Positions 886 to 16,514 of a DNA stretch of 23,378 nt are shown in pieces (position 1 is the first letter of the stretch; each line of letters opens with the position of its first letter). Source of the stretch: a virus; the IMG/VR virus record IMGVR_UViG_3300008217_000102, positions 1 to 23,378 of that record; one strand, given 5' to 3'. Made by a program: the position numbers and the translations under genes. The notes under the pieces were generated by a model. The model was not told the origin of the DNA, searched no databases, and saw only the letters and a list, made by a program, of their open reading frames with translations.

Positions 886-1059
886 GTGAATAGGGATGAG
901 TTTGAGAAACTATACGCGGAACATAGCGGAGTTACAGTCGAGTATTTGCGCCAGAATCGTCAATATGTGATACATTGCGATTGCGGAGGACCTTTATGCC
1001 AAGGTTGGCAAATGGTGTTTTTGCAATCCGACATTGAGGTTGATGAACTAGAAAAGTAG
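886..1059 (+). CDS. 57-residue Cys-motif protein, function unknown
   Basis: Starts at GTG 886 with GGAG about 8 bases upstream, 12 bases after the preceding mini-gene. The product MNRDEFEKLYAEHSG... carries an IHCDCGGPLCQGWQM segment, a C-x-C-x4-C arrangement that could bind zinc. The tail is acidic (SDIEVDELEK). Small proteins with a CxC...C-GWQ segment occur in phage early regions, but no function is known to me. Translation is likely coupled to 787..873. The structured non-coding stretch begins about 70 bases downstream. Confidence 0.65.
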   Translation: MNRDEFEKLYAEHSGVTVEYLRQNRQYVIHCDCGGPLCQGWQMVFLQSDIEVDELEK

Positions 1060-1128
1060 AGCCGGTGACTTAATCTTTCCAGGACATGATATGGGTCGCG
1101 CCACATTTTGTGTGTCGTCAGTTCTACT

Positions 1129-1478
1129 CCGCGCACACGGTTTAGCGGTGATTTCTGGCCTTGTGCGCGGGCGCTAACGTGTGTTAGCTTGGACGCTAAC
1201 CTCTTGGCGATTATTTGGCTTGATCAGGTAGTGGCCAAGGGGCTGGCGTTCTGCGGTGATCTATCTCATAGGGAGACACAGCGCAGGTCGCCGGTATAGA
1301 GAAAGGAGGAGCTATAGAAGAGATAGAAGTGTTGCCGAGGAACCGGGAGGGACTCGGTTTCTAGCTTTTAGCGCGACGCGAGAGGGTGAGGGGTACCAGG
1401 CTCGTAGCTCTCTCGCGCCGACTCAAGAGATCAGTAGCCGGCAGCCACCTTCGGGGCGTAGGTGGTCCTGCCTGCCGG
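1129..1478 (+). ncRNA. Candidate ornate structured RNA (about eight consecutive stem-loops) or long structured 5' leader
   Basis: Between the genes ending at 1059 and starting at 1501 there is no convincing ORF. The + strand instead folds into a run of strong helices: 1129-1137 with 1162-1170 (9 perfect bp); 1173-1178 with 1183-1188, or alternatively 1183-1188 with 1195-1200; 1201-1208 with 1234-1241; 1243-1255 with 1282-1294 (11 bp around a 2x2 internal loop); 1295-1299 with 1312-1316, presenting AGAAAGGAGGAG in its loop; 1338-1347 with 1353-1362 (10 bp, two G.U); 1377-1387 with 1407-1417 (8 perfect plus wobble pairs); 1438-1449 with 1461-1478 (7+5 bp, one bulge). No U-tract follows, so these are not simple terminators. 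It could be a stand-alone phage RNA or the leader of 1501..1797. I cannot match it to a known RNA class. Confidence 0.6.
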
Positions 1479-1500
1479 TCCAGCGAAGGGGAAATTGTAC

Positions 1501-1797
1501 ATGGACATAGAGATAGACATAGAAACGAGAAGGATAAATAAGTTATTGGAAATGATGGACGGCAAAACTCAGGGAAACGGGGGTTTTGAACGTGGGTTGT
1601 TTTTCTTGCTAAAGAGATATAAATCGTCTTTGCCACTACTTAATGATTATTTCCATAAAGCATTTCGTCAAATAGATATAACTGATTCCAGTCTTGTGGA
1701 TATGGCTATATGGAACGCGTTACAAGACAGCGAAATTTTCTGGCATTGTTTTGAATGCGTTCAGGACGAAAAAGACACTGATGACAAACCAAATTAA
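1501..1797 (+). CDS. Hypothetical protein, 98 residues
   Basis: ATG 1501 is preferred over GTG 1462 because GAAGGGGA lies at about 1485-1492 and because the upstream extension would run through the final hairpin of the structured region. The product begins MDIEIDIETRRINKLLEMM and has an amphipathic middle (FFLLKRYKSSLPLLNDYF) and an acidic C-terminus. It is predicted soluble and mostly helical. I do not recognise the family. If the upstream structured RNA is a leader, this gene is what it controls. Confidence 0.65.
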   Translation: MDIEIDIETRRINKLLEMMDGKTQGNGGFERGLFFLLKRYKSSLPLLNDYFHKAFRQIDITDSSLVDMAIWNALQDSEIFWHCFECVQDEKDTDDKPN

Positions 1798-2190: not shown

Positions 2191-2242
2191 CAATACGCAG
2201 CGGAAGCGGCCCGCGGCGCAAAAGAAGTATACGAGGAAGTGG

Positions 2243-2273
2243 GCCAATTCCAAAGGGAGTTGGCTTTTTTATT
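2243..2273 (+). terminator. Rho-independent terminator
   Basis: GCCAATTCC (2244-2252) pairs with GGGAGTTGGC (2257-2265, one G.U) around an AAAG loop and is followed by TTTTTT. This should end transcription of the upstream small-gene operon. It argues that the open frame running through it (GTG 2177) is not the start of the next gene. Confidence 0.85.
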
Positions 2274-3212: not shown

Positions 3213-3241
3213 TTGACATTGATTGCCGATTGTGTTATAAT
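3213..3241 (+). promoter_or_regulatory. Consensus sigma-70 promoter
   Basis: TTGACA (3213-3218) and TATAAT (3236-3241) are separated by exactly 17 bases, so both boxes match the consensus fully. Transcription should start near 3248 and run into the small-gene operon beginning at 3287. A perfect match of this kind in a phage suggests a strong early promoter read by the unmodified host RNA polymerase. Confidence 0.9.
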
Positions 3242-4816: not shown

Positions 4817-5155
4817 ATGACTGCCCGTGACATCGAGACGAGGCTAGACGGAATGACTGAACAGGAGATAAGAGATTTGAAAGCTTCGGTCAAGGCGCCG
4901 AACAAGTGCAAATCGGGTGATCCCGATTTGAAAGTCTGGTGGGCGTGCCAAGACCGTTTGAGTAACCTGAGAGAAAAACGACAAGGAGAACAATTTCTCT
5001 CGGGCGTCGCCGATCATTATAGTTTCGGAGGACAAGTAGCGGCGAATAGTGGCAACTCATTTGAACTGTGGATCGCCGATCATCCATACCACATAATTAG
5101 CCAAGATTTTGAACGAGGCTACCGACAAACCTCTAATGAACTTGCGGTAATTTAG
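4817..5155 (+). CDS. Hypothetical protein, 112 residues
   Basis: ATG 4817 lies 9 bases after GGGAGG. The N-terminal half is helical and charged (MTARDIETRLDGMTEQEIRD) with a W-W-x-C core (LKVWWACQDRLSNL). The C-terminal half is polar with aromatic residues (ADHYSFGG, then WIADHPYHII). No catalytic motif is recognised. The gene carries inverted repeats 4909-4930 and 4966-5004 and an 11-bp direct repeat (TCGCCGATCAT) near 5006 and 5072. Confidence 0.7.
   Translation: MTARDIETRLDGMTEQEIRDLKASVKAPNKCKSGDPDLKVWWACQDRLSNLREKRQGEQFLSGVADHYSFGGQVAANSGNSFELWIADHPYHIISQDFERGYRQTSNELAVI
4909..4930. repeat. 9-bp inverted repeat in coding sequence
   Basis: CAAATCGGG (4909-4917) and CCCGATTTG (4922-4930) are exact reverse complements around TGAT, inside 4817..5155. 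Confidence 0.8.
4966..5004. repeat. 11-bp inverted repeat in coding sequence
   Basis: CCTGAGAGAAA (starting at about 4966) pairs with TTTCTCTCGGG (4994-5004) with one G.U across a loop of about 17 bases. Confidence 0.6.
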
Positions 5156-5187
5156 TTTTTGGAGGATAGATAATAGATAATGCTTAT

Positions 5188-5360
5188 AATGAATTCCTGG
5201 CTGCCGGGCAAGACGCCGGCAGTATCGATAACTTTGGTAAGCGACTTGAAACTAAGTCGCTTACTATTGATATATAACGAATTACTAAATCAACGAAATT
5301 TAGTATGTTGCGCTTGCTGACGCGCAAGTATCAACCATGTATAACCAACAATAACAAGCC
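5188..5360 (+). pseudogene. Decayed, internally deleted copy of the 3953..4357 HTH gene region
   Basis: The left part matches parent position 4079 onwards: AATGAATTCCTGGCT is identical and the following 40 bases are similar. In the parental frame it reads NEFLAAGQDAGSIDN, against NEFLATGKDAGVIDN in the parent. The right part resumes at 5318 with TGACGCGCAAGTATCAACCA, matching the parent from about 4308. The HTH-encoding middle is gone, no start codon lies in frame (TAG just upstream) and a TAA follows after 29 codons. Between the two matches are new hairpins: 5237-5247 with 5254-5264 (11 perfect bp) and 5283-5290 with 5298-5305 (8 bp). Confidence 0.75.
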
Positions 5361-6112: not shown

Positions 6113-6593
6113 AACTCAAGATCAATGCGCCGGCCGTCCACCGTTTCATTCTTCTCAACAAATCGACTTCCACGACCGAACGCAAAGAACCATGTTAGAA
6201 CTTGTTTGTATATGTCGCAATGAATCTGACCAAACGTCTGTGGATGAGCAGTAACCCCCTCTACCCTGCCGGCCTTCGTCACCGCCAAAAACGCTGCCTA
6301 TCGGCAGGCAACGCCGTTATGTCACGAGATCGGGCGAATAATTAGAACATCCTTGCTAGATTCGTCCCGAAAATGTGGGCCGGTTCCCCACCAATAATCG
6401 ATGGTCAAGTCACGGGTGTTTTTTGTGGTGGTCAGTCGAGTATCGGGAACCAAGAGCAGGTCGATTTTCTACGAATCACCAAAAATCGTGGGGAAAACGG
6501 CGGGTTTTGTGGGGAAAACGGCGGGTTTTGTGGGGCGTAGCCGGGACTGGTGCCCAGCTACATAATGGTTTATAGTGCGAAGTTGAAACAAGG
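6113..6593. other. Non-coding interval with hairpins and tandem repeats
   Basis: I see no convincing gene on either strand in these 480 bases. The interval holds a short CTGCC/GGCAG hairpin (6294-6307), a long-range nested dyad in which GGTTCCC (6382-6388) pairs with GGGAACC (6445-6451) and CACCA (6389-6393) with TGGTG (6426-6430), and two 21-bp direct repeats. The mix of a large dyad and iteron-like repeats would suit a replication origin or regulatory hub, but there is no replication gene next to it. Confidence 0.45.
6488..6535. repeat. Two perfect 21-bp tandem repeats plus a 6-bp partial third
   Basis: The unit GTGGGGAAAACGGCGGGTTT(T) occurs at 6488-6508 and 6509-6529, and GTGGGG starts a third copy at 6530. 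Each unit contains AAAAC/GTTTT arms around a 5-base loop. Confidence 0.9.
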
Positions 6594-8022: not shown

Positions 8023-8051
8023 TTGACACATTAGTTCGGATATGATACAAT
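8023..8051 (+). promoter_or_regulatory. Near-consensus sigma-70 promoter for the tRNA unit
   Basis: TTGACA (8023-8028) and TACAAT (8046-8051) are separated by exactly 17 bases. The transcript would start near 8058 and read through the mini-ORF and tRNA to the terminator at 8377-8420. Confidence 0.88.
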
Positions 8052-8241: not shown

Positions 8242-8357
8242 CTAGTCCCGCACTGCACATATCGATGTGGGGTGGAGCAGTGGTAGCTCGCCAGGCTCAT
8301 TACCTGGAAGTCGCGGGTTCGAATCCCGCCCCCACCACTAACCGCGCCGCTAGCTAG
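8237..8357. repeat. GCTAGCTAG direct repeats flanking the tRNA
   Basis: Identical 9-mers GCTAGCTAG occur at 8237-8245 and 8349-8357, bracketing the tRNA gene at distances of 20 and 11 bases. This may be a scar of tRNA acquisition or RNA-processing symmetry, or may be chance. Confidence 0.6.
8266..8337 (+). tRNA. tRNA with CAT anticodon (Met or lysidine-type Ile), atypical
   Basis: Acceptor 8266-8272 pairs with 8330-8336 (6 of 7 pairs). D-stem GAGC/GCTC is at 8275-8278/8286-8289. Anticodon stem CCAGG/CCTGG is at 8291-8295/8303-8307, with loop CTCATTA and anticodon CAT at 8298-8300. T-stem GCGGG/CCCGC carries a TTCGAAT loop. Oddities: position 1 is T facing C72 (no pair), position 37 is T where a purine is normal, and CCA is not encoded. 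The anticodon stem lacks the three G:C pairs of initiator tRNA, so an elongator Met or an Ile tRNA needing lysidine is more likely. Confidence 0.85.
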
Positions 8358-8873: not shown

Positions 8874-9122
8874 ATGAATAGAAGGAAGTTTGTCAAAAAT
8901 CTGTTTTGCTCTGGTTTGATAGGTGGATTGGTAGCGGGATTGCATAATCCTGAATATACCGCAGCTTCTGAGGATGAGCATAAGCTCCCTGGTATTTCTC
9001 TGTCCAATGAACAAGGTGACAAATGGACCATATATGTCGACCCGAGTGGAGAATTAGCATTTGCAGCGAACGATGACCCGGAAATCGTCGTCTCGTTTCT
9101 TCCGCCTGAACCAACTCGGTAA
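8874..9122 (+). CDS. Small exported protein with a twin-arginine-like signal, 82 residues
   Basis: AAAGG precedes ATG 8874. The N-terminus MNRRKFVKNLFCSGLIGGLVAGL has RRKFVK followed by a moderately hydrophobic stretch, which fits a Tat-type signal (R-R-x-F-x-K). The mature part (about 55 residues) is acidic with beta-strand character (GDKWTIYVDPSGELAFAAND). No enzyme motif is present. Its position between the HExxH lipoprotein and the holin-type genes suggests a role at the envelope. Confidence 0.6.
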   Translation: MNRRKFVKNLFCSGLIGGLVAGLHNPEYTAASEDEHKLPGISLSNEQGDKWTIYVDPSGELAFAANDDPEIVVSFLPPEPTR

Positions 9123-9202
9123 TCCAAGATAATGGCAATATTGGTGGCAAGGTTTGCTGACATACAAATTGACAGATTTCTCCCTTCTCCTCCTCATGGA
9201 TT

Positions 9203-9230
9203 GGCCGGCGTCAAGGGACGGGCGCCGGCC
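9203..9230 (+). terminator. GC-rich hairpin with U-rich tail, possible terminator
   Basis: GGCCGGCG (9203-9210) pairs exactly with CGCCGGCC (9223-9230) and two inner pairs extend it. TGTTCTTGT follows: U-rich but interrupted. It probably partly separates the upstream small genes from the holin-endolysin genes. Confidence 0.5.
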
Positions 9231-9279
9231 TGTTCTTGTGGGCGATTTGAGGTGTAGCCAATGATCCTGCCAGACCACG

Positions 9280-9549
9280 ATGATGAATTCAAGGATTATG
9301 GAAGAAAAAAACATTGGCGAAGTTCTTCGTCGAATAGATCGACTGGAAGCAGTACTAGAAGAACGCCATAAGCAGAACAAAGAAGAAATGACCGCTATTC
9401 ATAAAGATCTAGACCGCTTTGAAATACGGCTACGTGACGTGGAGCTTACGCAAGCTAAGCTTTTGGCGGTGGTCACAGGTGGTGGCGGGATTGGCGGTGT
9501 TATTGCCGGCGGTATCTTGCTGGCCGGCAAAACACTTGGTTGGTTTTGA
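9280..9549 (+). CDS. XhlA-like coiled-coil membrane protein (lysis-associated)
   Basis: The product has a long charged coiled coil (EVLRRIDRLEAVLEERHKQNK, then IHKDLDRFEIRLRDVEL) followed by one glycine-rich C-terminal membrane span (VVTGGGGIGGVIAGGILLAG) and a short tail. That is the layout of the haemolysin XhlA family, small membrane partners of phage holins. Start: ATG 9280 or ATG 9298; AAGGA lies just before the second, so the shorter form (83 residues) is possible. The next gene is a holin-like protein, as expected for a lysis pair. Confidence 0.7.
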   Translation: MMNSRIMEEKNIGEVLRRIDRLEAVLEERHKQNKEEMTAIHKDLDRFEIRLRDVELTQAKLLAVVTGGGGIGGVIAGGILLAGKTLGWF

Positions 9550-15158: not shown

Positions 15159-16514
15159 ATGGCTGTGAATTCTACTTATATTGATGGCACGAAGAATATT
15201 CCGATCGAGGCATTGGATACGATGCTCTTTCCGGAGTTCTTTGATAGCGCGGATGCCGGCATCTCTGAGCGCGAGGCTTACAATTTTGTTGCGTGGGTTT
15301 ATCGGGCGGTGCAGCTTCGGGCTAATGCGTTGAGCAGCATTCCGTTCACGGTGCAAACGAGTGCCGGCCAGGCTCAAGACCGAATAGATTTTCAAAGCAT
15401 TTTGCCTCGATTGTTGCAGCTTACTGAGGCTAGTTTGTCTTTGCATGGTGAAGCGTATTGGCTCAAAGAAATCAATTTGCTCAACAATTTGCTTGCTATC
15501 AGGTGGGCGGTGGCGTCTACTATCAAGCTGAAGACTGATCCTATTGATGGTTTAGTGGGATTCACGCGGACGATACAGGGCGTGCCGAAACCATTAACCA
15601 AGGATGATGTATGCTGGTTTTGGCTGCCTGATCCAGAGGTGGAGCTTGGGCATGGCCAGGCGCCGGCGCAGGTAGCGCTTGAGGCGGCCGGAATCAATCG
15701 AAATATCAATCGGTATTCGTCGGCATTTTTCAAATCTGGCGCGATAAACCCGACCATTTTGAGCGTGACGGGGAATCCGGGCAAACAGGCGATGCGCGAG
15801 CTTGAAAGTTGGTGGAATCGGCTGGCGACGGGCATTAAGAATGCCTGGACATCGCGGGTGTTGAGATCGGAAGTGACGGTTACGCGCTTGACATCTGATT
15901 TGAAAGACATGGCGATGCCGGATTTGACTAAAAATAGTAAGGAGCAAATTGCGGCAGCGTTCGGTGTTCCGATTACGATGCTAGAGGATGCGGCGAATTT
16001 TGCTACGGCTAAGGAACATCGTGTTAGCTTTTGGCGTGACTCGGTTGTTCCTGACGCGAAGTTCATTGCCGGCAGCCTCAATGAACAGCTTTTTGAGCCG
16101 ATGGGGCTTAGGTTTGCTTTTGTGTTCGAGGATATTGAGGTTTTGCAGCAAGATGAGGCAACAAAGACAGATTCAGTTATTAGTCTGGTTGATGCCGGCC
16201 TGATCAGCCCGATGGAAGGTCGTGAGATGTTGAATCTTGCGGAGCGGACGGAGGTTGATGAGGCGGATATTATTGATAGCGCTGAAGTACGGGCGCTTGA
16301 TTTGAAGCGTTGGCAAAAGGTGGCTTTGAAGGAGTTGGTGGCCGGCAATAATCCGGCGCATCGGTATTTTCGGAGTGAGCATATTGGCGCGGGGTTGTAT
16401 GAGACGATTCATGGCCGGCTGGCTGGTGCGGAGACGAAAGACGAGGTGAGGGCTGCATTTGCAGCCAGCTTTCCCGTCGCAGATTATGGCCATAGCTGGG
16501 CCGGCTATCCTTAA
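15159..16514 (+). CDS. Portal protein (HK97 family)
   Basis: Dodecameric ring at the capsid vertex through which DNA passes. ATG 15159 lies 7 bases after terL. Family features are present: EREAYNFVAWVYRAVQLRANAL near the N-terminus, the ILPRLLQLTEASLSLHGEAYW helix, INPTILSVTGNP, LKDMAMPDLTKNSKEQIAAAFGVP and MLEDAANFATAKEH. That arrangement (…IaaaFgVP..ml…) is typical of HK97-like portals. Length 451 is normal. The C-terminal 100 residues (from about ERTEVDEADI) look like an added helical tail. It overlaps the next gene. Confidence 0.92.
   Translation: MAVNSTYIDGTKNIPIEALDTMLFPEFFDSADAGISEREAYNFVAWVYRAVQLRANALSSIPFTVQTSAGQAQDRIDFQSILPRLLQLTEASLSLHGEAYWLKEINLLNNLLAIRWAVASTIKLKTDPIDGLVGFTRTIQGVPKPLTKDDVCWFWLPDPEVELGHGQAPAQVALEAAGINRNINRYSSAFFKSGAINPTILSVTGNPGKQAMRELESWWNRLATGIKNAWTSRVLRSEVTVTRLTSDLKDMAMPDLTKNSKEQIAAAFGVPITMLEDAANFATAKEHRVSFWRDSVVPDAKFIAGSLNEQLFEPMGLRFAFVFEDIEVLQQDEATKTDSVISLVDAGLISPMEGREMLNLAERTEVDEADIIDSAEVRALDLKRWQKVALKELVAGNNPAHRYFRSEHIGAGLYETIHGRLAGAETKDEVRAAFAASFPVADYGHSWAGYP

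Follow-up and report, generated by a model that had tools for sequence, protein, structure and literature searches.

What is the role of a long, GC-rich run of hairpins separating two small genes of a tailed phage? The locus lies in the IMG/VR virus record IMGVR_UViG_3300008217_000102, which was analyzed over 23,378 bases (called the window below). The phage is uncultured and tailed, with a portal gene (15159-16514, Pfam PF04860) flanked by terminase-like and capsid-like genes. The gap at 1060-1500 sits within an early gene block that consists mostly of orphans, and the genes on either side of it are both on the plus strand (Table 1). The downstream one, called gene 1501 here, has homologues in Acinetobacter phages and others.

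The gap comprises 441 bases with a GC content of 56.7%, compared with 46.3% in the early genes, and ranks first in GC and second in length among the 11 gaps of at least 60 bases in the window. The longest gap, 6113-6593 (481 bases), contains a 21-base repeat, GTGGGGAAAACGGCGGGTTTT, in 2.3 perfect copies (6488-6535). Both codon usage and the family searches argue against a credible gene at 1060-1500. Most 120-base segments have a negative codon-usage signal in all frames, and the open reading frames 1256-1510 (plus), 1386-1541 (plus), and 1361-1636 (minus) score from -8.6 to -11.1 per 40 codons, while the frame 1108-1299 (plus) scores 0.0; the likely genes of the window score 0.4 to 16. None of the nine open frames on both strands had a notable match in PHROG or Pfam, and this absence of any trace of a protein family also counts against the remnant of a lost gene. 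Thus the initial annotation, which had described about 350 bases without a credible gene in a GC-rich block amid AT-richer genes, was right on both points.

It is confirmed that the gap folds into a strong run of hairpins, beyond what is expected by chance. The full fold of the plus strand at 1060-1520 (461 bases) has an energy of -189.8 kcal/mol, and none of 100 shuffled sequences was as stable (z -3.49). When pairs were limited to at most 75 bases, the plus strand of 1124-1480 reached -153.7 kcal/mol (z -4.89), again with no equally stable sequence, here among 250 shuffles. Five of the hairpins are robust by their pair probabilities (hairpins 1, 3, 4, 6, and 7 in Table 1), with weaker ones between them, and the outer parts of hairpins 3 and 4 compete with each other. 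The predicted set spans 1129-1479 and roughly matches the helices listed at the outset, which had been described as strong, local, and nearly end to end. The global architecture of 1060-1500 depends on the choice of the fold ends. For instance, folding 1060-1510 gives a rooted architecture closed by the pairs 1061-1070/1433-1442 a probability of 0.95, which falls to 0.0 with 1050-1560; as these pairs vanish on moving the ends, no such architecture is claimed.

Table 1. Features of the hairpin-rich gap and of its surroundings
Feature	Position	Strand	Basis
Upstream small ORF, 57 aa, orphan	886..1059	+	family searches
Non-coding, GC-rich, hairpin-rich intercistronic gap	1060..1500	+	codon usage, family searches, GC 0.567, fold z -3.49
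Hairpin 1, CCGCGCACACGG.../...CCUUGUGCGCGG, 15 pairs	1129..1170	+	mean pair probability 0.84
Two-state element GCUAAC-GUGU-GUUAGC-UUGGAC-GCUAAC	1171..1200	+	alternative pairs, P 0.43 / 0.52
Hairpin 3, the longest, 26 pairs (7 of them G-U)	1191..1251	+	mean pair probability 0.70
Hairpin 4, 15 pairs	1242..1295	+	mean pair probability 0.78
Hairpin 5, GCCGAG/CUCGGU and weaker outer pairs	1334..1358	+	mean pair probability 0.78
Hairpin 6, CGCGAGAGGGUGAGGGGU/GCUCGUAGCUCUCUCGCG, 16 pairs	1377..1417	+	mean pair probability 0.89
Hairpin 7, 6-base bulge	1437..1479	+	-24.6 kcal/mol (1433-1500)
Shine-Dalgarno-like AAGGGG of gene 1501	1486..1491	+	sequence; mostly open in local fold
Downstream gene 1501, 98 aa, PHROG 1451, function unknown	1501..1797	+	phrog_1451, E 8.9e-6
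First convincing intrinsic terminator downstream	2241..2266	+	stem of 11 pairs, then a T run

The strength of the fold has to be read against the background of the phage itself. Among about 130 genome windows of 357 bases the mean z is -0.95 (sd 1.43), so that the z of -4.9 at 1124-1480 is about 2.8 sd off the genome's own mean, for a region that was chosen for looking structured. This distance, the absence of any detected conservation, and the orphan neighborhood would all suit unselected or decaying sequence, for instance the remnant of a lost gene, which folds well owing to its composition and to local duplications. Such an origin seems to us rather doubtful, given that shuffling never reached the observed energy and that two consecutive 200-base windows are extreme in the scan of fold z scores. 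A second hairpin-rich stretch was observed at 4999-5355 (z -5.2, plus strand), where the AT-rich gap 5156-5360 has a GC content of 38.5%.

The minus strand of 1124-1480 is over-structured as well (z -3.51). The plus strand is more stable by 38.6 kcal/mol, and composition-keeping shuffles give a difference of 31.3 +/- 6.5 kcal/mol; 40 of 300 shuffles attain the observed value, and the strand bias is thus not significant. With both strands over-structured and their difference explained by composition, the sequence cannot tell whether the plus-strand RNA matters. The same two observations would fit inverted repeats that act at the DNA level, in a region of replication, recombination, or packaging, the hairpins mattering as DNA or being by-products. 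Palindromes also abound in other gaps of the phage, for instance at 2126-2190, and the gap 2101-2300 is more structured than the one considered here (z -8.7 and -9.1 on its two strands). Nonetheless, we hold a role as DNA to be quite improbable. The long helices are rich in G-U pairs, which are mismatches in DNA (7 of the 26 pairs in hairpin 3, though this is no more than in shuffled sequences), the GC skew does not change sign at the region, and neither iterons nor tandem repeats occur within it. In the stretch 2126-2190, two near-perfect palindromes, TCACTTTAATGGCT/AGCCATTAAAGTGA and AGCCGGCGACTCACACGTG/CACGTGTGAATCACCGGCT, lie side by side at and beyond the end of the gene 1847-2134. This stretch is the most structured of the window on both strands; together with the plus-strand terminator at 2241, it is probably a bidirectional terminator region.

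Two places in the predicted fold have alternatives of similar energy. In the two-state element, GUUAGC pairs with either copy of GCUAAC, forming the helix 1173-1188 or 1183-1200, and the whole region 1171-1295 has two states of -82.4 and -82.2 kcal/mol, a difference of 0.2 kcal/mol. At the downstream end, hairpin 7 competes with a pairing of 1445-1453 with 1484-1491 that covers the Shine-Dalgarno sequence of gene 1501 (-23.2 kcal/mol for 1443-1500). As proposed initially, this AAGGGG motif follows the last hairpin by less than 10 bases, starting 7 bases after its end at 1479. In the local fold it is among the more open Shine-Dalgarno sequences of the window and thus gives no clear sign of translational control. 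For this reason, and despite the close energies, we set aside the idea that 1437-1491 is a riboswitch-like expression platform. Multistability can also arise in random sequences. Taking this together with the open Shine-Dalgarno sequence, we regard switching, for which the competing folds at 1171-1295 and 1437-1491 would leave room, as a possibility only. That the region represents a large phage RNA of a class not yet described, about 350-440 bases long, switchable through a two-state core at 1171-1295 and the alternative at the Shine-Dalgarno sequence and belonging to an unsampled lineage, strikes us as quite improbable.

The initial annotation had also suggested a relative of the phage RNAs GOLLD and ROOL, and this was not borne out. 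With 4227 Rfam families, no match to the gap 1060-1500 passed the gathering score; at E <=10 only three matches appeared, all far below threshold and to unrelated eukaryotic families. Neither group I and group II introns, RNase P, tmRNA, and 6S RNA nor any other Rfam family gave a model match. The lack of a GOLLD or ROOL match even at E <=10 argues against both. Members of GOLLD are often longer than 800 bases, and both GOLLD and ROOL often occur near tRNA islands (PMC12286853). The region is like GOLLD in being a large non-coding structured stretch of a phage genome, and like ROOL in being a multi-helix candidate phage RNA of unknown function. It differs from both in its lack of an Rfam match and in its distance from tRNA genes, and from GOLLD also in the length of the gap (441 bases): the single tRNA found by ARAGORN in the window, a tRNA-Met at 8266, is 7 kb away.

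Relatives of the region itself were sought at several levels. Neither the 50,697 phage and 72,556 plasmid records nor the four MAG genomes, five phage records, and additional virus record that were also compared yielded a nucleotide relative. In IMG/VR, six queries made from the early genes or the region gave no relative sharing the region, and three of these, from early genes, gave no relative. The 49-50 IMG/VR records reached through relatives of the terminase or of gene 1501 contain no homologue of the region. Across their whole records, the terminase relatives (about 40-60% identity) share only chance matches of 14-20 bases with the window, and their early regions are unrelated; one IMG/VR fragment, L004, has an identical terminase region and ends short of 1060-1500. 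The pattern GGMGCTAACRTGTGTTAGCTTGG had no match in IMG/VR, and the switch pattern GCTAAC/GTTAGC/GCTAAC had 40, none of them in a sequence relative. A dense array of GCTAAC/GTTAGC palindromes was seen at 9120-9410 (minus strand) of L150, an unrelated IMG/VR contig. Covariance models made from the single sequence at 1168-1297 and at 1368-1480 recovered from about 1.1-1.4 Mb only the window itself and one weak match at 2858-2975 of another contig, L114 (24 bits, E 0.012). The latter was taken as a chance match, since a single hairpin fits, the second is located within a gene, and the other model has no match there. A search of 299 genomes from the phylum of one MAG with a related terminase also returned nothing, a result which in that set shows little. 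The evidence for the region comes from one sequence of an under-sampled phage.

Orphan large RNAs do exist in phages. In ICP1, an orf-less transcript of about 800 bases was the most abundant phage transcript by RNA-seq (PMC7567579). The region resembles it as an orphan phage non-coding stretch without an adjoining tRNA (PMC7567579) and differs in the kind of evidence, which there includes RNA-seq and here is the sequence. The gap also approximates, in length and GC contrast, the targets of GC-IGR screens, in which long GC-rich gaps amid AT-richer genes are used to find structured RNAs (PMC6429828). Among the structured leaders and riboswitch candidates of phages, the manA and wcaG motifs occupy what are potentially the 5' UTRs of genes (PMC2864571); they were defined by conserved sequence and covariation, in contrast to the single sequence without an Rfam match considered here. 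The resemblances to GOLLD, ROOL, the ICP1 transcript, and the GC-IGR targets are likenesses, not membership. The GC contrast and the ICP1 example agree, as do the five robust hairpins, with a stand-alone, trans-acting large phage RNA of an undescribed class, comparable in kind to GOLLD and ROOL and made as its own transcript or cut from the operon transcript. The homologues of gene 1501 lack the region, which is therefore separable from that gene, and this too speaks for such an RNA. We consider it unlikely, since the consensus scan revealed neither an own promoter nor a credible terminator, the tRNA is far away, the phage, plasmid, and IMG/VR searches gave no homologue, and the global architecture shifts with the chosen ends. 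It is weakened further by the over-structure of the minus strand and by the gaps 2101-2300 and 4999-5355, which are at least as structured. If the RNA is real, it would be one more orphan among the few large structured RNAs known from phages, whose functions are unknown; at present, its value is that it defines precisely what transcript and homologue searches should look for.

In the consensus scan, no site on the plus strand of 1-1800 reached 9/12 as a promoter, and there was no credible plus-strand terminator between the gap and position 2241. Weak terminator-like sites on the plus strand at 997-1010 and 1194-1209, the latter within hairpin 3, were discounted. By comparison, the tRNA-Met unit has an extended promoter (11/12, position 8023) as well as a terminator (8397), and a 12/12 promoter is present at 3213; this difference favours the region being a segment of a longer transcript. 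The initial suggestion of a structured leader for gene 1501 (1501-1797) is partly weakened by the open Shine-Dalgarno sequence and by the homologues, yet this placement is still the one best supported by the absence of an own promoter and terminator. In Acinetobacter phages, Vequintavirinae, and a spring metagenome phage, the homologues of gene 1501 adjoin or overlap the upstream gene, and those in IMG/VR are preceded by short or AT-rich gaps, none comparable in GC content and structure. These annotated phage and IMG/VR members of the PHROG 1451 family are thus without such a leader, and as a leader of gene 1501 the region would be new.

We tentatively favour, at somewhat less than an even chance, a structured segment between the cistrons of an operon mRNA, acting in cis. 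This reading builds on a gap that is non-coding by codon usage, over-structured, and promoterless by consensus scan, with flanking genes on one strand and its last hairpin just before the Shine-Dalgarno sequence. A polycistronic phage mRNA would start ahead of 886, include 1060-1500, and end with the terminator 2241-2266. The string of stable hairpins would most likely protect or punctuate the message, and could keep the expression of gene 1501 distinct from that of the preceding genes, through stability or independent translation. We infer transcription of 1060-1500, the plus strand as its acting strand, and any effect on expression. Against a cis-acting segment are the lack of a homologue, and hence of visible conservation or covariation, the over-structure of both strands, with an asymmetry explained by composition, the absence of such a leader from the homologues of gene 1501, the open Shine-Dalgarno sequence, and the length of the gap, 441 bases being long for a simple intercistronic spacer.

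Two near-perfect extended sigma-70 promoters with TG before the -10 box were observed elsewhere in the window, at 3213-3241 (12/12) and 8023-8051 (11/12). The former precedes an early gene block, and the latter a small unit with a 52-aa ORF and the tRNA-Met. Finally, the palindrome GCCGGC occurs at 82 sites in the window (for instance 132, 379, 1437, 1803, and 2160), 16.4 times the mononucleotide expectation, while the next palindromic hexamer reaches only 2.3 times. The excess is 15.6-fold in the fragment L004 and 4.7-fold in another contig, L063. This resembles the signature of a highly iterated palindrome; among cyanobacteria, rCCGGy is reported to be over-represented in one Oscillatoria strain, where it has been tied to a methyltransferase (PMC4390886).
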